From Bacteroidales bacterium (lineage in GTDB: Bacteria > Bacteroidota > Bacteroidia > Bacteroidales > GCA-2748055), in the NCBI GenBank assembly GCA_029210725.1, contig JARGFM010000011.1, positions 12,390 to 76,389 of the forward strand: 64,000 nt of DNA, in the 5' to 3' direction. A model generated the notes under the pieces. It was not told the DNA's origin and made no database searches. It saw only the letters and a list, made by a program, of their open reading frames with translations. The translations under genes and the position numbers were made by a program. Of the stretch, positions 3,582 through 53,364 are shown piece after piece; position 1 is the stretch's first letter, and every line of letters begins with the position of its first letter.

Positions 3582-4519
3582 CTCTGATATCAGCCAGTAA
3601 AGTTGTCAAGGACTTTAGCGGACACAGGGCACTGAACCACGTGTCGATGGAGGTCCCCGAAGGCAGCATCTATGGCTTGCTTGGACCCAATGGTGCCGGA
3701 AAGACCACCCTTCTCCGGATTATTAATCAGATTACTGCACCCGACCAGGGCAGCATTCTTTTCGAGGGAAGCCCAATCGGTCAGGAACACCGGCCCATGA
3801 TCGGGTACCTGCCGGAGGAGCGGGGCCTCTACAAAAAAATGAAGGTCGGAGAACAGGCCCTCTATCTGGCACAACTGAAGGGCCTCTCCAGGAAAGATGC
3901 CATGGACCGGCTGAAGCTGTGGTTCCGGAAATTCGAGATGGAGAGCTGGTGGGACAAAAAGGTGGAGGAGCTTTCCAAGGGAATGGCCCAGAAGGTACAA
4001 TTCATCACCACGGTCCTGCACCAGCCCAGACTCCTGATTTTTGATGAACCCTTCAGCGGCTTCGACCCGATCAATGTGAACCTGCTGAAGCAGGAGATTT
4101 TACAAATGAAGGAGCAGGGAGCCACGATCATTTTTTCCACCCATAACATGGCATCCGTGGAGGAGCTCTGCGATCATATCACCCTGATAAACGAATCGGA
4201 AGTGGTGCTTCAGGGAGAAATCTCGGAGATCAGGGAGCGATACCGGTCCAATAAGTACCGGGTCACTTTCTCCGGAAGCAGGGAGCAGCTGAGCGGCGGC
4301 CTGGATCCCCGCTTCGAATTGCTGGCTGTGGAAGAGAACGGCATGGGACAGAATGCCATTATCCGGATCAGGAATGAGGAAGAGGGTTCGGGAAAGCTGA
4401 TCAGGAATCTCCTCGATATCACAGAGATTAAGGCCTTTAACGAGATATTACCGGGTATGAATGACATATTTATACAGGTGGTCCATGACACCATTAGAAG
4501 GGAGGCCGGTCATGAATAA
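3578..4519 (+). CDS. ABC-2 type transporter ATP-binding protein
   Basis: 313 residues. Walker A is GPNGAGKTT (around residue 34), the signature is LSKGMAQK, Walker B is [13 protein letters not shown], and the H-loop is FSTHNM. The ~90-residue C-terminal extension after the H-loop is usual for NatA-like ATPases (DUF4162 type). With the next gene it forms an ABC-2 exporter; sodium or drug export is known for relatives, but the substrate cannot be read here. The start overlaps the dnaJ stop (ATGA), and the 3' end overlaps the permease start by eight bases. Confidence 0.92.
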
Positions 4520-5891
4520 AATCAGTCTGATCATCCGGAGGGAGTACCTGACCCGTATCCGGAAGAAGTCCTTTATTATCATGTCCGTACTCGGACCCCT
4601 GATCTTTGCTGCCTATATACTGATCCCCATGTACTTTGCCACCCTGGAGGATAAAGAAGAGAAGACCATGGTGGTGATCGACGACTCCGGACTTTTCACC
4701 GAACGGCAGGCGGAAGGTCCCGTTTTTACCATCCCGGGAACCGAAACCCTTAAATTCCAGGTAGTGGAGGGTATTCCCATTGAAATTTTCAGGGAGACTT
4801 TTGAGGAGTCCGGCTATTATGGCCTGCTCTTTATCCCCTCCAATATACTGGCTTCAGAATCATCCCTGATCTACTCGACCAAACAGACCTCCCTGGAGAT
4901 ATCGGAATACCTGGAGCGCTCCATGGAGAGCGAGATTGAACATCTGAAGCTGGCGCAGCATGAGATCAGCGATATTGAGAAGATCCTGGCGGAGGTGGAA
5001 ACCAATATCAACGTCAGAAACATCAAGTGGACCAAGGACGGGGAGACCCAGGAGAGCAACACCGGGGTGATCATGGCCATCGGTTACCTGGGGGGCATGC
5101 TGATCTTTTTCTTTATCTTTTTCTTCGGCTCGCAGGTCATGCGGGGAGTGATCGAAGAAAAAGTGAGCCGCATTATAGAGGTGATCGTCAGCTCGGTAAA
5201 ACCCTTCCAGCTGATGATGGGTAAAATCATTGGAGTGGGGCTCACCGGACTGACCCAGTTCCTCATCTGGATGATATTTTCGGCTGCCCTGGTCACCGGA
5301 CTGAAAGCAGCTTTCTTCCCGGAGCTCAACCGGACCCCGACCGAGCAGGTAGTGAGCTCTGGTCTCTTTGACCAGGGAACAGAAGTCCAGGCCCCTGGCA
5401 TGGAGAGCCCGGAGAGTTTGGCCGGTGAAGATATGCTTCAGGAGATATTCGTATCGCTGCAGTCGATCCATGCCGGGGTAATGATCGGATCCTTCCTTTT
5501 CTACTTTATTTTCGGCTACCTGCTCTACGCAGCCATGTTTGCGGTAATCGGATCGGCCGTCGATAACGAGACTGATACCCAGCAACTGATCTTTCCGGTG
5601 ATCCTTCCCCTGATCCTGGGCCTTTATGTGATGATCAGCGCCATCAATAATCCGGATAACGCCCTGTCCTTCTGGTTTAGCATCATCCCCTTTACCTCGC
5701 CGGTGGTCATGATGGTGCGGATCCCCTTCGGGGTCCCCTGGTGGCAGGTTGCGGTCTCCGGCACCCTGCTGGTAGCCACATTCATCGGAATGACCTGGGT
5801 GGCCGGAAAGGTGTACCGTACAGGGATCCTGATGTACGGAAAGAAAAACAGCTACAAAGAGATCTGGAAATGGTTAAGGTATAGCTCATGA
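4512..5891 (+). CDS. ABC-2 type transporter permease (NatB-like)
   Basis: 459 residues from the ATG at 4512 ([21 protein letters not shown]), the usual start of this family; an upstream in-frame start would lie deep in the ATPase gene. There is an N-terminal membrane helix (about 22-42), then a ~150-residue extracytoplasmic domain. Next come membrane helices beginning at IMAIGYLGGMLIFFFIFFFG, with the VIEEKVSRIIEVIVSSVKP segment typical of ABC-2 permeases. A second soluble loop sits between helices 3 and 4. It pairs with the ATPase encoded just before. The stop overlaps the next ATG by four bases. Confidence 0.9.
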   Translation: MNKISLIIRREYLTRIRKKSFIIMSVLGPLIFAAYILIPMYFATLEDKEEKTMVVIDDSGLFTERQAEGPVFTIPGTETLKFQVVEGIPIEIFRETFEESGYYGLLFIPSNILASESSLIYSTKQTSLEISEYLERSMESEIEHLKLAQHEISDIEKILAEVETNINVRNIKWTKDGETQESNTGVIMAIGYLGGMLIFFFIFFFGSQVMRGVIEEKVSRIIEVIVSSVKPFQLMMGKIIGVGLTGLTQFLIWMIFSAALVTGLKAAFFPELNRTPTEQVVSSGLFDQGTEVQAPGMESPESLAGEDMLQEIFVSLQSIHAGVMIGSFLFYFIFGYLLYAAMFAVIGSAVDNETDTQQLIFPVILPLILGLYVMISAINNPDNALSFWFSIIPFTSPVVMMVRIPFGVPWWQVAVSGTLLVATFIGMTWVAGKVYRTGILMYGKKNSYKEIWKWLRYSS

Positions 5892-6805
5892 TCACAGCCA
5901 TCCTGGATTTTGGAACCAACACCTTTAACCTGCTGATCGCTGAACGAAAGGACCGCAGTTTTCATATCCTGCACAGCAGCAAGCAACCGGTAAAGCTGGG
6001 AAAAGGAGGGATCCAGATCAACCGGATTACTCCGGATGCCTGTGAGCGGGGCTTTGTGGCCATACAGAACCATATGGAGAACATAGCCCGTTATCCGGTG
6101 GATGAGATCCGCGCTTTTGCCACTTCCGCCATCCGGAATGCAGCCAACGGGGAGGAGTTTACCGAAGAGGTATACCGAAGATTTGGTTTCAGGGTCCGGA
6201 TCATCCCCGGGGAACGGGAAGCAGAACTGATCTATAAAGGGGTCCGGCAAGCGGTCCCTCTGACTGAAGACTATGTGATGATTCTCGATATCGGGGGAGG
6301 AAGTAATGAGTTTATCATTTGTAACAGGGAGGGGATTCTCTGGAAACGCAGTTTCGAACTGGGCATGGCCAGGCTCCTGGAGCTGTTTGCGTTTTCGGAT
6401 CCCATCCGGCCGGAGGAGATCCGGGCCCTGGAATCCTATTTCAGGCAGGAGCTGTCTCCCCTGCTGGATGTGGTCAGAAGCATCGGGCCGGAAACTCTGA
6501 TCGGGGCCTCAGGTTCCTTTGATACCTTTCATGAACTGATCCGCTTTCACCTGGGACAGGAAAAAGATGAGTTCCACGGAAGAGAAATCTCCATGAAAGA
6601 GTACCATAAACTTCACCGCCGCCTGCTGTCCTCCACCCTGGCGGAGCGCAGGACCATGCCCGGCATGGAAGCCGTGAGGGTGGAAATGATCGTAGCCGCC
6701 ACAATTTTTGTTAGTTTTGTAATACGTTCCTGCCAGATCAAAAACCTTCACCACTCGGAATTTGCATTAAAAGAGGGTGTCATCTCCGAGCTGGCAGGCT
6801 TCTGA
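5888..6805 (+). CDS. Ppx/GppA-family phosphatase
   Basis: 305 residues of the exopolyphosphatase/guanosine pentaphosphatase family. The actin-like ATPase fold is shown by the phosphate 1 motif ILDFGTNTFNLLIAE at the N-terminus and the phosphate 2 motif ILDIGGGSNEFI around residue 133, with GxxRLLE after it. Only the N-terminal Ppx-GppA domains are present; the C-terminal HD-like extension of long E. coli-type enzymes is absent, as is common in Bacteroidota. It would act on polyphosphate and/or pppGpp in the cytoplasm. It overlaps the permease stop, so it belongs to the grpE operon transcriptionally. Confidence 0.88.
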   Translation: MITAILDFGTNTFNLLIAERKDRSFHILHSSKQPVKLGKGGIQINRITPDACERGFVAIQNHMENIARYPVDEIRAFATSAIRNAANGEEFTEEVYRRFGFRVRIIPGEREAELIYKGVRQAVPLTEDYVMILDIGGGSNEFIICNREGILWKRSFELGMARLLELFAFSDPIRPEEIRALESYFRQELSPLLDVVRSIGPETLIGASGSFDTFHELIRFHLGQEKDEFHGREISMKEYHKLHRRLLSSTLAERRTMPGMEAVRVEMIVAATIFVSFVIRSCQIKNLHHSEFALKEGVISELAGF

Positions 6806-6821
6806 ATCGAAATAATTATAT

Positions 6822-7988
6822 ATGGTAAATATCCTGGTAATAGACGACGAGAGAAGTATCCGGAATACCCTGAAGGAAATTCTGGAATATGAAAAATTCA
6901 GGGTTGAGCTTGCCGAACACGGAGCAGAGGGGCTGGAGCTTTACCGAAAGGGGCACTTTGATATCGTCCTGTGCGATATCAAGATGCCGGAAATGGACGG
7001 ACTGGAAGTGCTGGAGAAGATCTTTGAAGAGGAAGGTGATGCCCAGGTCATTATGATCTCCGGTCATGGAAACATTGATAATGCGGTGGAGGCCATTAAA
7101 AAGGGGGCCTATGATTTTATTGAAAAGCCCCTGGACCTGAATCGCCTGCTGATCACCATACGCAATGCCCTGGATAAATCGAGTCTGATCACGGAAACAA
7201 AGGTATTGAAGCGGAAAGCGGGCAAGGGCTTCGATATGGTGGGTGAATCCTCAGCCATTCAGCAGGTCCGGGACATTATCCGGAAGGTGGCCCCTACCGA
7301 TGCCAGGGTCCTGATTACCGGTTCAAACGGAACTGGCAAGGAGCTGGTCGCCCGCTTCCTGCATGATAACAGCAACCGTGCCTCTGCTCCGTTTATTGAA
7401 GTAAACTGTGCGGCGATCCCTTCCGAACTGATTGAAAGTGAACTATTTGGCCACGAGAAAGGGGCCTTTACCTCTGCCATAAAGCAGCGCAAAGGTAAAT
7501 TTGAACAGGCCGACGGAGGCACCATTTTTCTGGATGAGATTGGCGATATGAGCCTCTCCGCCCAGGCCAAGGTGCTGAGGGCCCTTCAGGAGAATAAGAT
7601 CACCCGGGTGGGCTCTGACAAGGACATCCATGTGAATGTGCGCATCGTGGCAGCCACCAACAAGAATCTGAAAACAGAGATAGAAAAAAACAGGTTCCGC
7701 GAAGACCTCTATCACAGACTCAGCGTGATCCTGATCCAGGTACCCACCCTGAACGAACGGCTGGAAGATATCCCCCTGCTGGCCGAGCATTTTAATCAGC
7801 TAATCGCCGAAGAGTATGGCAACTCTCCCAAAGTAATCAGGGAGGATGCCATTAAAGAATTGCAGAAGATCAACTGGACCGGGAATATCAGGGAGTTCCG
7901 AAATGTGCTCGAGCGACTGATTATCCTGTGTGAGAAGGAGATCACCGCCAAAGATGTGATCAACTTTGCCATGCCCATCTCCAGGTAG
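6822..7988 (+). CDS. Response regulator with sigma-54 AAA+ domain, no DNA-binding domain
   Basis: 388 residues. The receiver domain (1-120) has the acidic pocket DDE and phosphoacceptor D52 (LCDIKMP). The AAA+ domain (about 135-370) has Walker A GSNGTGKE (K173), a GAFTSA loop at 214-219 where the sigma-54 contact loop is normally GAFTGA, and Walker B FLDEIGD (236-242). The protein stops 18 residues after the lid helices (NVLERLII). The Fis-type HTH that follows in NtrC is therefore absent, so it is either an enhancer-independent activator or one that works without site-specific binding. No histidine kinase is adjacent. It starts 16 bases after ppx. Confidence 0.88.
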   Translation: MVNILVIDDERSIRNTLKEILEYEKFRVELAEHGAEGLELYRKGHFDIVLCDIKMPEMDGLEVLEKIFEEEGDAQVIMISGHGNIDNAVEAIKKGAYDFIEKPLDLNRLLITIRNALDKSSLITETKVLKRKAGKGFDMVGESSAIQQVRDIIRKVAPTDARVLITGSNGTGKELVARFLHDNSNRASAPFIEVNCAAIPSELIESELFGHEKGAFTSAIKQRKGKFEQADGGTIFLDEIGDMSLSAQAKVLRALQENKITRVGSDKDIHVNVRIVAATNKNLKTEIEKNRFREDLYHRLSVILIQVPTLNERLEDIPLLAEHFNQLIAEEYGNSPKVIREDAIKELQKINWTGNIREFRNVLERLIILCEKEITAKDVINFAMPISR

Positions 7989-48178: not shown

Positions 48179-48219
48179 TTGCCAAAACCGGGTAACAATT
48201 TCCTGCCCTTTCTGATTAA
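48179..48219 (+). repeat. Shared leader element, copy 1
   Basis: A 41-base element (starts TTGCCAAAACCGGGTAACA, ends CTGATTAA) that recurs at 48874-48913, with about 34 of 41 positions identical. GGGTA and TGCCC within it can pair as a short hairpin. It lies 91 bases before the 59-residue ORF, after an A-rich tract (48150-48178). Confidence 0.6.
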
Positions 48220-48310
48220 ACGGTATGAAATAAAAAAAATAAATCCGGGTAAATTCATTATATGCCTGATAATAAGTATATTAACGTATAAAACGCAAAA
48301 AGAAACAGAT

Positions 48311-48490
48311 ATGAGAGCCCTTCACGAAAAATACGGAACGAAAAACCTGGTTTTTCTCTCCCGGAGAGATAAAGATGTTTTGATCTACATGAACAGCGAC
48401 GTATGGATCACTCCGGATCTGAAAAGATTTAAAAATGATCTGCTTGAAAAAGTTATGAAAGAAAATCTGAATTCAAATACAGATCGTTGA
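48311..48490 (+). CDS. Small protein of unknown function
   Basis: 59 residues from the ATG at 48311 (MRALHEKYGTKNLVFLSRRD). It is basic and soluble, with a likely beta hairpin (NLVFLSRRDKDVLIYMNSDVWIT) and a C-terminal helix. No family was recognised. The stop is two bases before the next ATG, and both genes sit behind leader element copy 1, so they are probably co-expressed. An upstream in-frame start would add a hydrophobic stretch but has no support. Confidence 0.55.
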   Translation: MRALHEKYGTKNLVFLSRRDKDVLIYMNSDVWITPDLKRFKNDLLEKVMKENLNSNTDR

Positions 48491-48492
48491 AC

Positions 48493-48765
48493 ATGAGAAC
48501 AGAGAATATGAAACTAAGAGAAATTTGCTGGGACAGAGAGTTAAAGGAAGCCGTCTGGAAAAAAGGCCGGATCAATCCGGACTACGCCCCACATGTACTG
48601 CGCTGGGATTACCGGGGCCGGATCATGATGTGGTCGAAATACGGAAGAACAGATTCGATCTTCGGATGGACCATTGAAGCCCGGGATCCGGTAAAGGAGG
48701 AGGATGGGATCAACCTGGACAATCTGTATCCTGTTAATTCTTTTAGCCCGGATAAAAATGAATAG
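48493..48765 (+). CDS. Degenerate HNH-nuclease-like protein
   Basis: 90 residues. The order W-x-KG near residue 22, LRWDYRGRI, SKYGRTDS, GWTIEARDPV (59-67) and NLDNLYPV (74-81) follows a common small HNH family. In active members these read RKDxxGAWI, YGxxxSxYGWEIDHIxPV and LxNLQPLHWxNN. Here the catalytic Asp-His is replaced by Glu-Ala (62-63), and the HWxNN motif is absent. The fold is probably kept and nuclease activity lost. It ends before a strong terminator. Confidence 0.65.
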   Translation: MRTENMKLREICWDRELKEAVWKKGRINPDYAPHVLRWDYRGRIMMWSKYGRTDSIFGWTIEARDPVKEEDGINLDNLYPVNSFSPDKNE

Positions 48766-48863: not shown

Positions 48864-48903
48864 CCCGGCTTTTTTGCAAAAACCGGGTAACACTTCGTTG
48901 CCC
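48864..48903 (+). promoter_or_regulatory. Two mutually exclusive hairpins in the peptide gene leader
   Basis: CCCGG-C-TTTTT (from 48864) can pair with AAAAACCGGG (48878-48887). Alternatively GGGTAAC (48885-48891) pairs with GTTGCCC (48897-48903). Both use the GGG at 48885-48887, so only one can form at a time. This is the layout of an attenuator or of a protein-binding leader. The fold is by eye only. Confidence 0.4.
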
Positions 48904-48913
48904 TTCTGAATAA
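48874..48913 (+). repeat. Shared leader element, copy 2
   Basis: Second copy of the element at 48179-48219 (starts TTGCAAAAACCGGGTAACA, ends CTGAATAA), ending 29 bases before the ATG of the GG-motif peptide. In this copy the hairpin stem is longer (GGGTAAC/GTTGCCC with one G-U pair) than in copy 1. Confidence 0.6.
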
Positions 48914-48942
48914 TTAATCATTCACTTTAAAAACAAAAGATC

Positions 48943-49080
48943 ATGAAAAAGAAAATGCAAACAAGAAACGAACTGGTACAGAAGTTCCACAAAGAAATGA
49001 TCGAAACCAAAAAAATGAACTACCTGACCGGTGGTGACGGTGACGGAGGCCAGGGTTCCATCGGTGATCCCTGGGATTAA
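48943..49080 (+). CDS. 45-residue GG-motif peptide, possible secreted signal or natural-product precursor
   Basis: The ATG at 48943 encodes a basic, helical leader (MKKKMQTRNELVQKFHKEM) followed by IETKKMNYLTGG, then a 14-residue acidic Gly/Asp tail that ends in GDPWD. The M-N-x-L-x-GG turn resembles double-glycine leaders of Bacteroidota natural-product precursors, which are cut by peptidase-containing ABC exporters. The tail lacks cysteine and has a single serine, so lanthionine or thiazole formation is unlikely. No modifying enzyme or exporter is adjacent. The next gene encodes a CHAT protease. Confidence 0.6.
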   Translation: MKKKMQTRNELVQKFHKEMIETKKMNYLTGGDGDGGQGSIGDPWD

Positions 49081-49171
49081 TATAGCCATGATCAGGGCAA
49101 CAATCCGGACTTTCTCTTTTATCAGGGCTGTATTTTAAATACCTTTACCTACCCTGTGAAACCTGATAATA

Positions 49172-51931
49172 TTGAGAAAGCCAATTGTTTCCCTGGTATT
49201 CGGCTATATCTGTTTTGCCGCTGCATACGGACAGCAGGCGGCAGATTCGGCCAGGTTCCTTTATGAAGAATCTTATAAGTCTGTTTATGCAGGTGATTTT
49301 TCCCAGGCTGAATCCTATCTGGCAGAGTTGTTTAAGTATGGTCATACCCTGTCTGTTTACCAGATGGCCCTGGTACATAACAGACTGGGGTTTGTGTACT
49401 CTGAAACGGGACGCTTAAGGGAAGCCCTGGAGGAGTACCGGATTGCCGAAGTCCTTACTGAAGGGGCAGACACAAGGTTTATACAACTCAGGATCAGCAT
49501 CCATATCAATCAAGGCTTACTCTATAATAACCTTGGTGATTACACCAATGCCCTGGAGTATAATAACGAGGCGGAAAGGCTGTTGAGGTCAGTCCCAGCC
49601 TGGGACAGTATCTCTTATGTCAAATTATCCGCTCTCCTGCTTAATAACGGGATTGTCTTAAACCATTTGGGCAGGCATGAGGAGGCGCGGGAGGTTCTGG
49701 AAGAATGTGCGCAGATTAAAAAGACGTATAAGCACTCCTACCTGGGAAGTGTCTATTTTAATCTGGCCCGGGTGTATCTGAACCTGGGAGATCCGGAACT
49801 TGCCCATCAGAACTATCTGAAAGGAATTGAGCAATGGACCTCAGAATATGACTCGGATTATTTTGAATTAGCCAATATTTATCTTCATTTCGGACAGTTC
49901 CTGAACGCTCAGGGAAAGCCGGAGGAAGGCTTTGAATACCTGCAAAAAGCACTGCAGAACTATTTGCAGAATTATGATCCCGGGCACCCCCTGACGGCGG
50001 CCTGTTATGAAGCGATCGCCCGGTATTTCCTGAACCGGTGCGAATTTGAAAAATCCCTGGAGTATCTCCAGCTGGCACTGCATTCCATTGCAGGATCGTT
50101 TAAAGAACAGGATTTGTTTTCAAATCCGGAACCCGGAAGTGCCAGTCATGACCCGACCCTGCTCAGGATCCTTGCTACAAAAACAGAGGCCCTGGAAAGG
50201 ATCTCTGCCGGTGCCGGAACAACCGAATACAAGAGGAAGTATACAGAAGCTGCCCTTTCCACCAATCTTCTCTCCCTGGAGGTGCTTCAGCAGATCCGGA
50301 ACGCTTTCCTTTCATCTGAAAGCAGGATGTTCATGAGCTCCCGGCAAAAAGATCTCTTTACTGCCGGGATCCGCCTCAACCTCCGGATGTTCAGACTAAG
50401 CGGTCAAGAAAGATTTATCGAAGAGGCTTTTCTGATGGCTGCAAAAGGAAAGTCCGGGGAGCTGATGTTCGAAATGAAGAATAAGGAGTGGCTCTATCTG
50501 GAAAGCCTGTCGGATACTATGGCCATAAGCGCCATTGAGCTCAGGCAACAGATTGACTATCTCTCAAACCTGATCCAGTCGCACATCATGGATATGAATC
50601 CGGACTCTGTCCAGCTGGTAAACTGGCAGGACCAGCTCTTTCAAACCAGGGATTCCTTTAACAGACATATGGAACAGCTTCGCAGGGATCTTCCCCAGAT
50701 TGGCCAGTTCGAGCCAGATATGCAGGATTTCTCCCTGGAACAGATCCGCAGAAGCATGAAGCACGGCGAATCCCTGGTAGAATACTTTATCGGAGCTGCT
50801 GATTCAGCAGACAGGGAGCAGTTATTCATTTTTGTAGTAAGCAGGCAGGGATGCCAATACTACCAGTCCACTCTGGATTCTGCTTTCAGGGAAAACCTGG
50901 AAACCATCATGGATAAGCTGCACCTTTTCGTACCTTACAATGAAAGCAGGGAACGGTTTGACAGTCTGAAGCTTGCCCTGTACGGAGCCTATCAGGAACT
51001 TGTAGAGCCTGTGGAGTCATTTTTCAGGGGCCGGAATCTGCTGATTGTCCCTGATGAAACCCTCTCCTATATTCCTTTTGACGCATTGATCACCCGTCCG
51101 GACCCGGACAGTATTGCCAACTACGCCGGGATTTCTTATCTCCTGCAGGATTATAACATTTCCTATATCTATAATTCACAGCTGATTGCACATAAGCGCC
51201 CCCGGGACTGGCGTTTCCCCCGGGTAACTGCCTGGATCCCTGAACAGGCCGGGTCGCCGGTACGCGCCTATGGAAAGCTGAGCGGAGCTGAACAGGAGGT
51301 CGGGGATATCCTGAAGCTGGTTCAGGGCCGCTGTGTCCAACAAATAATCAGTAAGCCGGAGCTTGCAGCTTTACTGCAGGAGAGCTCCATCCTTCACCTG
51401 GCCATGCACTCCCTGGCAACCGAGATTACAGGGAAGTCGCCCTATTTCATCCTGGATACGGTCGCGGATCCCCTGCTGGGAAACCGGATGCACGACTATG
51501 ATATAAATGCCCTGAAGCTCTCGGCTCCCATGGTGGTCCTGAGCAGTTGTGAAACAGCAGGGGGACCCTTAAAAAGCGGGGAAGGCATTATGAGCCTGTC
51601 CAGAAGCTTTTTGCAGGCCGGTGCAGCATCGGTGGTCCATACCCTCTGGCCCGTGGATGATGTAAAAAGCAGGGAAATCATGATAGCCTATTACCGGGAA
51701 TTAAAAAAAGGCCGCTCGAAAAGCAGGGCCCTTTCCAATGTGAAGAGACAGTATATGCTCGGGCAGCCGCCTTTCTATACCCATCCATACTACTGGGCGG
51801 CCTTCCAGATAAGCGGCGACAATGCCCCGCTGAACCTCCGCAGGAGTATATCCATCATCCCGGGATCCGTCCTGCTTGTTCTTCTCTACTTGTTTTATTT
51901 AAAACGGCGAAGTTTCTTCCGGAGGCCCTGA
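49172..51931 (+). CDS. TPR-CHAT caspase-like protease, exported and membrane-anchored
   Basis: 919 residues, with a TTG start at 49172 (no ATG or GTG between the upstream stop at 49157 and this point). It has a signal peptide (residues 1-20, ending AAAYG), then TPR repeats (about 45-330), a helical linker, and a C-terminal CHAT domain (about 600-885). The catalytic dyad is H746 (ILHLAMHS) and C793 (VVLSSCETAGG), with the following GEGIMSLSRSFLQAGAASVV and LWPVDD motifs typical of CHAT. A membrane helix (about 893-910) and RRSFFRRP end it. The protease therefore faces the periplasm. It overlaps the convergent TPR anti-sigma-like gene by 37 bases. Confidence 0.87.
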   Translation: MRKPIVSLVFGYICFAAAYGQQAADSARFLYEESYKSVYAGDFSQAESYLAELFKYGHTLSVYQMALVHNRLGFVYSETGRLREALEEYRIAEVLTEGADTRFIQLRISIHINQGLLYNNLGDYTNALEYNNEAERLLRSVPAWDSISYVKLSALLLNNGIVLNHLGRHEEAREVLEECAQIKKTYKHSYLGSVYFNLARVYLNLGDPELAHQNYLKGIEQWTSEYDSDYFELANIYLHFGQFLNAQGKPEEGFEYLQKALQNYLQNYDPGHPLTAACYEAIARYFLNRCEFEKSLEYLQLALHSIAGSFKEQDLFSNPEPGSASHDPTLLRILATKTEALERISAGAGTTEYKRKYTEAALSTNLLSLEVLQQIRNAFLSSESRMFMSSRQKDLFTAGIRLNLRMFRLSGQERFIEEAFLMAAKGKSGELMFEMKNKEWLYLESLSDTMAISAIELRQQIDYLSNLIQSHIMDMNPDSVQLVNWQDQLFQTRDSFNRHMEQLRRDLPQIGQFEPDMQDFSLEQIRRSMKHGESLVEYFIGAADSADREQLFIFVVSRQGCQYYQSTLDSAFRENLETIMDKLHLFVPYNESRERFDSLKLALYGAYQELVEPVESFFRGRNLLIVPDETLSYIPFDALITRPDPDSIANYAGISYLLQDYNISYIYNSQLIAHKRPRDWRFPRVTAWIPEQAGSPVRAYGKLSGAEQEVGDILKLVQGRCVQQIISKPELAALLQESSILHLAMHSLATEITGKSPYFILDTVADPLLGNRMHDYDINALKLSAPMVVLSSCETAGGPLKSGEGIMSLSRSFLQAGAASVVHTLWPVDDVKSREIMIAYYRELKKGRSKSRALSNVKRQYMLGQPPFYTHPYYWAAFQISGDNAPLNLRRSISIIPGSVLLVLLYLFYLKRRSFFRRP

Positions 51932-52701
51932 GCGTCTTGTTTATACATCCCATCGTATCTTTCCAGCTGCCCCAGTAGTGAGCCGGTCTTTTCGTACTCC
52001 CCGGTTTTCAGACAGCAGAGACTCAGATACCACAGACTCTCTGCCTGATATCTTATTTGACTGTCCACCAGGGGTGCCAGCAGACTTTGTGCCTGCTCGT
52101 ACTGCCCAAGTCCCAGGCAGGAAAGAGCCGAGAAGAAGCTGACCTCGGATTCTAAGGCCGGGTCTGAGGCCAGTCCGTCAAGCTGGTCGATGGATTGTTG
52201 ATAATTCCCGTCCAGGTAATGGTTGATCCCCAGGGCAACTTCCCGGAACATTTCGCCCGATTCACCACGCTGCGTAAAATCAGAAGCCTCAAGGGGTGCA
52301 TAATACCGGTCGAACAGGCGATCCTGATCAACTCCCGGGGGCAGGATCCCAAAGGTGAATAAAAGCGCAACTGTTGCCGCAATGGCTGCTGCAGCTGTGA
52401 TTCTCCTGAACCTGATCTTTTTTCCGGCGGGCTCCAGCATCCGTTCAGATGGTTCACGGGATTCAGATGCAAATGCCAGATCTGCCAGTTTCTCCACATC
52501 TTCCAGCCGGGGATCCGATCTCATCTCCTCCAGTTGTAGTTTTGTCTGCAAATACTCCTTCACCTGCCTGTGGAGCTCATAAGATTCCCGTAGTTCAGGA
52601 TCAACCGCGATTTCCATCTCCATCTCCACGGTCTGTTCCGGGCTCAGATCATTGTAGATATAATCTGCCAGGCTCCTGTTTCTATCCATTTTCCGATCCA
52701 T
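51895..52701 (-). CDS. Anti-sigma-like membrane protein with periplasmic TPRs
   Basis: 268 residues. Residues 1-95 (LADYIYNDLSPEQTVEMEMEIAVDPELRESYE...) look like the helical cytoplasmic domain of non-zinc anti-sigma factors. One membrane helix (101-119) is followed by a periplasmic part with TPR-like helical repeats (about 150-265: INHYLDGNYQQSIDQLDGL, SALSCLGLGQYEQAQSLL, SLCCLKTGEYEKTGSLL). It lies 14 bases downstream of the sigma factor gene. It probably holds the sigma factor inactive until a periplasmic event releases it. Confidence 0.75.
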   Translation of the reverse strand: MDRKMDRNRSLADYIYNDLSPEQTVEMEMEIAVDPELRESYELHRQVKEYLQTKLQLEEMRSDPRLEDVEKLADLAFASESREPSERMLEPAGKKIRFRRITAAAAIAATVALLFTFGILPPGVDQDRLFDRYYAPLEASDFTQRGESGEMFREVALGINHYLDGNYQQSIDQLDGLASDPALESEVSFFSALSCLGLGQYEQAQSLLAPLVDSQIRYQAESLWYLSLCCLKTGEYEKTGSLLGQLERYDGMYKQDAQGLRKKLRRFK

Positions 52702-52715
52702 AGCGTCCGAGTATA

Positions 52716-53303
52716 TTAATCCATATCCAGAGTTAGTTCGATCTGCCTGATTTTTTTGAATGTGGGATGGTTCTGGATCATCTTCATCAGAAAATCATGG
52801 CACATGCTTTTCCGTTTTCGCACATAGCCATAGCTAAATCCCAGCTTTTCTGAAATTTCCCGTGGCGAATAATCTTTCAGGTATCCCCCCAGAATATCCT
52901 GACAGACTGTGTCCAGCTGCTGAAAGCTTTCCCAGAAAATCTCCTGGTATAACTGCAGGTCGGCTTCTTCTGAAAAATCCCATTCCGGTGTATTATCCAG
53001 CTTCCGCAAATGATAATTACGCACGGCGACCTGCTTCTCCAGGTGCTGCTTCCAGGTTATCTTGCACAAGGCATAGACCAGGGTTCCCAGCTTACAGGTC
53101 AATTCAAAATCTTCCCGGTCCACCAGGCGAATCAGTGCGATCAGGCCTTCACTGAATACATCCCTGGCATCCTCCTGGCTTCCTCCCATCTCCATGACCA
53201 TGATGCGAATGCTTTCCTGGAACTTAGCCTGGAGATATACAAAGGCAACATCCTCCCGTTTCCGGATAGAATTGATAATATGTTGATCACTGTATTTTTC
53301 CAT
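52716..53303 (-). CDS. ECF-type RNA polymerase sigma factor
   Basis: 195 residues from the ATG at 53303 (MEKYSDQHIINSIRKRE). Region 2 helices include AFVYLQAKFQESIRIMVMEMGGSQEDARDVFSEGLIALI, which has the DA.DVF core of sigma-70 region 2. Region 4 is QQLDTVCQDILGGYLKDYSPREISEKLGFSYGYVRKRKSMC, a helix-turn-helix for the -35 element. It is the first gene of a two-gene unit with the anti-sigma-like gene and is divergent from the VTT gene. Its promoter is of the vegetative type, not autoregulated in an obvious way. Confidence 0.85.
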   Translation of the reverse strand: MEKYSDQHIINSIRKREDVAFVYLQAKFQESIRIMVMEMGGSQEDARDVFSEGLIALIRLVDREDFELTCKLGTLVYALCKITWKQHLEKQVAVRNYHLRKLDNTPEWDFSEEADLQLYQEIFWESFQQLDTVCQDILGGYLKDYSPREISEKLGFSYGYVRKRKSMCHDFLMKMIQNHPTFKKIRQIELTLDMD

Positions 53304-53335
53304 GGCAACGATCAGGCAGAGAAACTTGCGCGTGC

Positions 53336-53364
53336 CAAAGTTAGCAAAAGAAGTACATATACAA
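53336..53364 (-). promoter_or_regulatory. Promoter of the sigma/anti-sigma operon
   Basis: On the minus strand TTG (53362-53364) is 18 bases from TAACTTTG (53336-53343), matching the Bacteroidota consensus. The sigma factor ATG lies 33 bases past the -7 element. Housekeeping transcription is therefore likely. Confidence 0.6.

Follow-up and report, generated by a model that had tools for sequence, protein, structure and literature searches.

A recurring CHAT protease, anti-sigma and ECF sigma factor module with a seemingly exchangeable exported partner in Bacteroidota

The window analysed here is a 64,000-nt stretch of contig JARGFM010000011.1 from a Bacteroidales bacterium, and the coordinates given below refer to it. 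We investigated a locus in this window at which four genes lie together. These are a predicted double-glycine leader peptide of 45 aa (48943..49080, + strand), a 919-aa tetratricopeptide repeat (TPR)-CHAT protease-like protein (49172..51931, + strand), a 268-aa TPR anti-sigma-like protein (51895..52701, − strand) and a 195-aa extracytoplasmic function (ECF) sigma factor (52716..53303, − strand). The sigma and anti-sigma genes are arranged tail to tail with the peptide and CHAT genes. The CHAT protein matched the Pfam CHAT family (PF12770; 1.4e-44, 153.1 bits against a cut-off of 24) and contained TPRs. The sigma factor matched TIGR02937 (sigma70-ECF superfamily) at 43.1 bits, just over the cut-off of 42.9, and fell under the cut-off for Pfam Sigma70_r2 (19.4 vs. 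24 bits). The anti-sigma-like protein matched an NCBIfam anti-sigma model weakly over residues 11–142 (22.1 bits against a cut-off of 100) and Pfam TPR_2 below its cut-off (20.1 vs. 27 bits). Library models thus give the sigma and anti-sigma proteins little support of their own, and both are identified also by synteny and family comparison.

The original prediction had proposed these four features near 48874–53364. They do exist, and they belong to a module that is almost certainly a real conserved unit. In a metagenome-assembled genome of the Bacteroidia (L033), all four genes recur with unchanged order and orientation, the CHAT protein being 63% identical to that of the window, and a genome of the same genus (G007, locus L036) has kept order and orientation with a CHAT protein 53% identical. 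This recurrence indicates that the grouping is not due to chance. The start codon of the CHAT gene is TTG in the window and likewise in L033 and L036.

The catalytic dyad of the CHAT protein, H746 and C793, was predicted to be intact, which was borne out by its invariance in an alignment of 28 sequences including that of the window. The His/Cys pair was also intact in 52 of 53 CHAT open reading frames (ORFs) of at least 500 aa, the exception being a fragment without that region. From family and dyad, the protein is predicted to be a proteolytic enzyme. By hydropathy only, it has a hydrophobic signal-like N-terminus and a C-terminal hydrophobic stretch followed by a basic tail, and it is thus predicted to be exported, membrane-anchored and facing the periplasm. 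When the PDB was searched with a profile of the whole protein, the 60 matches listed of 270 included TPR proteins; the CHAT part alone returned one CHAT-domain chain (8rot, E 0.032) and one unrelated row. Membership of the Csx29 family was rejected, as the NCBIfam Csx29 model scored 14.3 bits against a cut-off of 300. Relatives in PHROG were also searched for and rejected.

The anti-sigma-like protein (AlphaFold model at a predicted local distance difference test score, pLDDT, of 62) shows one hydrophobic stretch at approximately residues 101–119, with a predicted cytoplasmic N-terminal part before it and the TPR part on its far side. With a single membrane stretch, a domain beyond it and a gene beside that of the sigma factor, it fits a membrane anti-sigma factor. 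The CHAT protein and the anti-sigma TPRs had been suggested to face the same compartment, and hydropathy predicts that both proteins share that compartment and the membrane.

The association of these genes was investigated across related genomes. A CHAT relative at E ≤ 1e-30 was present in 48 of 119 genomes of the order, window genome included. Part of the CHAT neighbourhoods was fetched, and the counts for the order are based on 52 CHAT genes, 45 predicted to be anchored and seven unanchored. Excluded were five CHAT ORFs shorter than 500 aa (L012, L038, L042, L048, L085) and a 677-aa fragment at L048; the excluded L038 has both sigma and anti-sigma genes, and L085 shows neither. A sigma or anti-sigma gene lay within 3 kb of 32 of the 45 anchored CHATs, 28 of them with both genes, and of none of the seven unanchored ones. 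Where at least 3 kb had been read on both sides, 22 of 28 anchored CHATs had a sigma or anti-sigma gene, and six did not (L039, L043, L045, L059, L067, L078). At class and phylum level (35 CHATs), a sigma or anti-sigma gene was near 14 of the 18 anchored proteins and 4 of the 17 that are unanchored. Taken together, it was found near 46 of 63 anchored vs. 4 of 24 unanchored CHATs (Fisher 2e-6, uncorrected for kinship). Three unanchored class-level CHATs (L160, L161, L167) were seen behind a secreted-looking protein of 312–314 aa; the stretch read around them contained no sigma pair.

The window genome contains two CHATs, one C39-peptidase ATP-binding cassette (ABC) transporter, three members of the sigma family (E ≤ 0.001) and three of the anti-sigma family (E ≤ 0.01). 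Each of the three sigma and three anti-sigma genes has a CHAT or the C39 exporter no more than 1.6 kb away, at three places on separate contigs (the window, contig 22 and contig 31). On contig 22 (L034), the second CHAT (4386-7226, + strand) has its own double-glycine peptide (4033-4158, − strand), a divergent anti-sigma gene 0.5 kb upstream and a sigma gene 1.5 kb downstream. On contig 31, a sigma/anti-sigma pair of the same family directly precedes the only C39 exporter of the genome (L073:7262-10787), which showed no HlyD match within the stretch read. G007 repeats this scheme.

Among 22 sigma places (E ≤ 1e-12) in 16 CHAT-bearing genomes, 17 had a CHAT (16) or an exporter (1) no more than 3 kb away. 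At one further place (L124) the neighbouring CHAT is truncated by the end of the contig, giving 18 of 22, and four (L125–L128) had neither nearby. Of the 71 genomes without a CHAT match, 14 had matches to the anti-sigma profile (E ≤ 1e-10) at 18 places. Seven of these places were read; four adjoin a CHAT-domain protein (L209, L210, L211, L213), so the CHAT search at E ≤ 1e-30 had missed divergent members, and three (L212, L214, L215) had no CHAT in the stretch read. The association of CHAT with the sigma/anti-sigma pair is therefore strong and not absolute. Joint presence across Bacteroidota, proposed at the outset as a check, was positive for these three genes. Regular absence of the pair from CHAT relatives, named as speaking against the original prediction, was found for the unanchored CHATs and for the six well-flanked anchored ones.

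The peptide was characterized with a leader profile built on 19 peptides and run on 6285 small ORFs from 62 loci. Training peptides were chosen by eye from double-glycine pattern matches near CHATs, and proximity to CHAT is thus built in. At E < 0.05 the profile matched 21 ORFs, every one 43–474 bp 5' of a CHAT gene. Two of these, the peptide beside the second CHAT of the window genome and the peptide in L065, were outside the training set. These two matches, the lack of matches at E < 0.05 elsewhere and the leave-one-out ranks are the fair evidence from this profile. With each locus left out in turn, 16 of 19 peptides ranked 1–5 (window peptide rank 5), and those of L078, L079 and L033 ranked 211–565. 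Residues −4, −7 and −12 before the cleavage site were Leu, Ile, Val, Met or Phe in 21 of 21 leaders, window peptide included; together with the double glycine, this is the canonical pattern for leaders that C39 peptidases process. The window peptide, with its leader ending in ...MNYLTGG and the 14-residue core DGDGGQGSIGDPWD, is on this pattern a double-glycine leader peptide, for which cleavage at the double glycine and export are predicted. The 21 cores are 12–32 residues long, net acidic in 19 cases and in many cases Pro/Asp-rich; only one Cys occurs among all of them.

A double-glycine peptide was found at 18 of 36 anchored CHATs of the order with 600 bp of upstream sequence, so that the expected joint presence of the peptide held for about half. 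It is encoded on the CHAT strand in the window clade (three peptides) and divergently in the other 18. Peptide-bearing CHATs were scattered over several branches of a quick tree, which was used for that point only. A C39-peptidase ABC exporter lay within 6 kb of the CHAT in 9 of 45 anchored loci of the order; the single exporter of the window genome is on a different contig from the window, as noted above. At class level, L185 showed a weak leader candidate 1.5 kb from its CHAT (E 0.07).

Other exported proteins take the peptide's place in some relatives. Directly upstream of eight CHATs of the order, and on the same strand, is a protein like a type IX-sorted SdrD-like one (L041, L051, L054, L055, L057, L059, L060, L062); the type IX sorting tail and SdrD-like domain were identified by Pfam in L054, and the other seven were assigned by similarity. 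At class-level loci, the gene upstream of CHAT often has a signal- or lipoprotein-like start, as judged by eye. Ten such proteins were scanned; three were subtilases (L171, L173, L185), one had PKD and DUF domains, and six had no Pfam family. The exported partner thus seems exchangeable across relatives. A constant core of anchored CHAT, anti-sigma and sigma factor with a varying exported partner fits a CHAT that reads its partner as a receptor/protease or one that handles it.

A promoter-like element, GGTWAC (often GGGTWAC) followed after ~18 bases by ATTAA, was observed in upstream stretches of module genes. It precedes five sigma genes (L041, L051, L057, L065, L071) by 37–43 bp. In the window, one copy (CGGGTAAC-N18-ATTAA, 48189..48219, + strand) lies 5' of two small ORFs, and a second (GGGTAAC...TCTG...ATTAA, 48885..48917, + strand) lies 5' of the peptide gene and is a spacing variant outside the strict pattern. 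L033 and L036 have elements at both positions. None was seen before the window sigma gene or the contig-31 operon. Counting GGTWAC-N17-19-ATTAA within 350 bp upstream, we found it at 6 of 21 peptide, 5 of 35 sigma, 3 of 8 type IX cargo and 2 of 20 exporter genes. The counts for CHAT (2/58) and anti-sigma (1/39) genes are sites identical to those of peptides. No HlyD gene had it (0/14), and 2 of 314 other genes did, both within module loci. Shuffled sequence gave fewer than 0.5 matches in every gene class; some sites are orthologous and hence not independent. In genome G065 (L079), the peptide and exporter genes are more than 13 kb apart, and their elements agree in 24 of 28 letters.

Genome-wide, the strict GGGTWAC-N17-19-ATTAA pattern gave seven matches in G007 vs. 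one for the reversed control, three of them in CHAT loci. A wider pattern gave 8 vs. 5 in the window genome, and another gave 6 vs. 1 in the window genome (three of six in CHAT loci) and 8 vs. 0 in G007 (two of eight); simple k-mer counts were too noisy to be relied on by themselves. At two further strong sites in G007, no common gene was evident. A further copy was observed at L122 (G007:C31:68094), with an ORF that appears TIR-like by eye starting ~1.3 kb downstream. The element is likely the promoter of this group of ECF sigma factors, in which case the peptide would be a sigma target. The original prediction had treated the peptide as a double-glycine signal acting on the protease. The leader is indeed canonical; the exporter had been missed, and to judge from the element the peptide probably lies downstream of the sigma factor, at least as one of its roles.

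The best explanation in our view, at a probability of roughly 0.5, is that the whole forms a switch in which regulated proteolysis controls an ECF sigma factor. The sigma factor would be held by a single-pass anti-sigma factor whose TPR part lies in the periplasm, and the TPR-CHAT cysteine protease would be exported and anchored in the same membrane, facing the same compartment. An exported partner, here the short acidic double-glycine peptide secreted through a C39 ABC transporter, would determine how active CHAT is, as its ligand or its substrate. Once active, CHAT would make the first cut in the juxtamembrane segment of the anti-sigma factor and free the sigma factor, which would raise expression of the peptide and, in some lineages, of its own gene and the exporter, producing an autoinducing loop. 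Computed support for this reading comes from the module itself, the type of leader, the link to an exporter, the intact dyad, the predicted topology and the shared promoter-like element; cleavage, its site, the role of the peptide and the direction of signalling are inferred. The odds that CHAT acts on the anti-sigma factor appear about even, and a role of the peptide as CHAT ligand is less likely than not. The interpretation originally offered is partly supported overall.

A candidate for the cut lies in the segment YYAPLEASDFTQR145-G of the window anti-sigma factor. A conserved aromatic pair and an Arg-[Ser/Gly/Thr] stretch follow the membrane segment in this family, corresponding to R145-G146 in the window. 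Among anti-sigmas of 201–329 aa, to which these counts are restricted, R-[SGT] was present in this position in 28 of 32 CHAT-linked proteins of the order (8.0 expected from shuffles), and in 8 of 114 control segments from the TPR region. Arg specificity is known for some clan CD proteases, and R145-G146 may be considered a candidate cleavage site as a lead only.

Several results weigh against a peptide-gated switch. The juxtamembrane Arg is also found in anti-sigmas linked to exporters (3/4) or to neither (4/4), and in only 10 of 18 class/phylum anti-sigmas; for these reasons it was dropped as a mark of CHAT partners. The strict element is absent from 30 of 35 sigma and 15 of 21 peptide genes, including those of the window, and in the window genome GGGTWAC-N17-19-ATTAA occurs no more often than its reversed control (2 vs. 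2), with both sites in the module. Peptides of the window clade were weakly matched when that clade was left out of the profile (window E 1.4, L036 0.079, L033 200). Across 32 class/phylum loci, no leader was detected in the 600 bp around CHAT, even though a sigma or anti-sigma gene is near 18 of the 35 CHATs there. The AlphaFold model of CHAT, made from a two-sequence alignment, had a pLDDT of 44 and was unusable.

The main rival to the proteolytic switch is that the anti-sigma TPRs sense an envelope signal and the sigma factor induces an exported product (the peptide, type IX cargo, a subtilase or another secreted protein), which CHAT processes or guards while leaving the anti-sigma factor alone. 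The position of the element before some peptide, cargo and exporter genes agrees with this, as does the change of exported partner while CHAT stays, and exporter-linked sigma pairs occur with no CHAT in the stretch read (L073, L074, L077). What it leaves unexplained is why anchored CHATs mostly retain the pair while unanchored ones mostly have none, and we regard it as possible but less probable than the switch. Rather unlikely in its entirety is a full peptide-pheromone pathway, in which the periplasmic TPRs of CHAT would read the double-glycine peptide, CHAT would cut the anti-sigma factor and the sigma factor would boost peptide and exporter, with other lineages rewired to type IX cargo, subtilases or other secreted proteins.

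Many bacteriocins carry double-glycine leaders and are secreted by C39 exporters, and CHAT proteases are also present in conflict systems. The peptide could on these grounds be a bacteriocin-like or self-directed toxin, with CHAT as immunity protein or executioner under ECF control. Unlike cationic or hydrophobic bacteriocins, the cores described above are short, mostly acidic and often Pro/Asp-rich with one Cys among them, and a bacteriocin was set aside as first choice on this composition. No defence family was matched beyond a local 17-bit hit to BovA, and a defence-system label was rejected. A role in competition or cell fate is improbable. Even less credible is a loose neighbourhood, in which joint control of envelope genes would keep CHAT and the sigma pair side by side although the proteins do not act on each other. 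The six well-flanked anchored CHATs of the order without a pair and the four sigma places without CHAT or exporter would suit it; the three-of-three association on separate contigs of the window genome and the recurrence over many families with differing gene order speak against it.

Parts of the proposed switch have precedents. DegS is an HtrA-type protease. Proteolysis of the anti-sigma factor releases an ECF sigma factor in systems of the RseA/DegS and RsiW type, which are named in PMC10028731. The module would share this principle, with a caspase-like CHAT as the first protease. Craspase (type III-E CASP) is the closest experimentally shown case: the TPR-CHAT protease Csx29 cuts Csx30, the inhibitor of an ECF-like sigma factor (PMC10028731). 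Both systems thus combine a TPR-CHAT protease, an ECF-like sigma factor and its inhibitor. As described there, Csx29 acts in an RNA-guided Cas7-11 complex, whereas the module CHAT is predicted to be exported and anchored, the inhibitor would be a membrane TPR anti-sigma factor, and a peptide and exporter would replace the RNA.

The model member of the ECF54 group is from Geodermatophilus, an actinobacterium. According to a review, ECF54 sigma factors have CHAT, subtilase and carboxypeptidase genes in their context, are listed without an anti-sigma factor and may be under proteolytic control (PMC8999054). The ECF–CHAT link itself is therefore not new, and the CHAT and subtilase context is shared with the module. 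In the Bacteroidota module, unlike ECF54 as listed there, an anti-sigma-like gene adjoins the sigma gene, at the window locus as well, and loci of the order with either gene carry both within 3 kb in 28 of 32 cases; a double-glycine peptide or another exported partner is also present. HetF of cyanobacteria, which functions in cell division and heterocyst initiation, likewise combines CHAT (aa 1–555), TPR and one predicted transmembrane segment, and the part of its description consulted gives no sigma pair (PMC8406250). Secretion of double-glycine peptides by C39 ABC exporters shares leader pattern and exporter with the module, which differs in coupling short acidic, often Pro/Asp-rich cores to CHAT and an ECF sigma factor.

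In the literature searched, which left subscription papers mostly uncovered, we found no description of an anchored CHAT with a membrane TPR anti-sigma factor, a double-glycine peptide and a C39 exporter in Bacteroidota, or of the partner set of the CHAT relatives of this order. The module supplies a concrete set of a candidate substrate, a candidate ligand, an exporter, a sigma factor and a target promoter. If the proposed switch is true, it would lead from a caspase-like protease to transcription with an exported peptide as the gate, and would be to the extracytoplasmic space what Craspase, gated by RNA, is to the cytoplasm. It would also point to a signal that a group of ECF sigma/anti-sigma pairs may respond to.

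Upstream of the peptide gene, a 59-aa ORF (48311..48490, + strand) and an ORF of 85–90 aa depending on start codon (48493..48765, + strand) were also observed. The first had no PADLOC or PHROG match, and a longer stretch containing it (48290–48490) had no Pfam or NCBIfam match. The second, searched as 48502–48765, matched nothing in Pfam, NCBIfam, PADLOC or PHROG, and its product may resemble HNH-type proteins. By eye, L033 and L036 have ORFs similar to both, for the first one at the corresponding position, and the two ORFs are preceded by a promoter-like element of the kind that also precedes the peptide gene.

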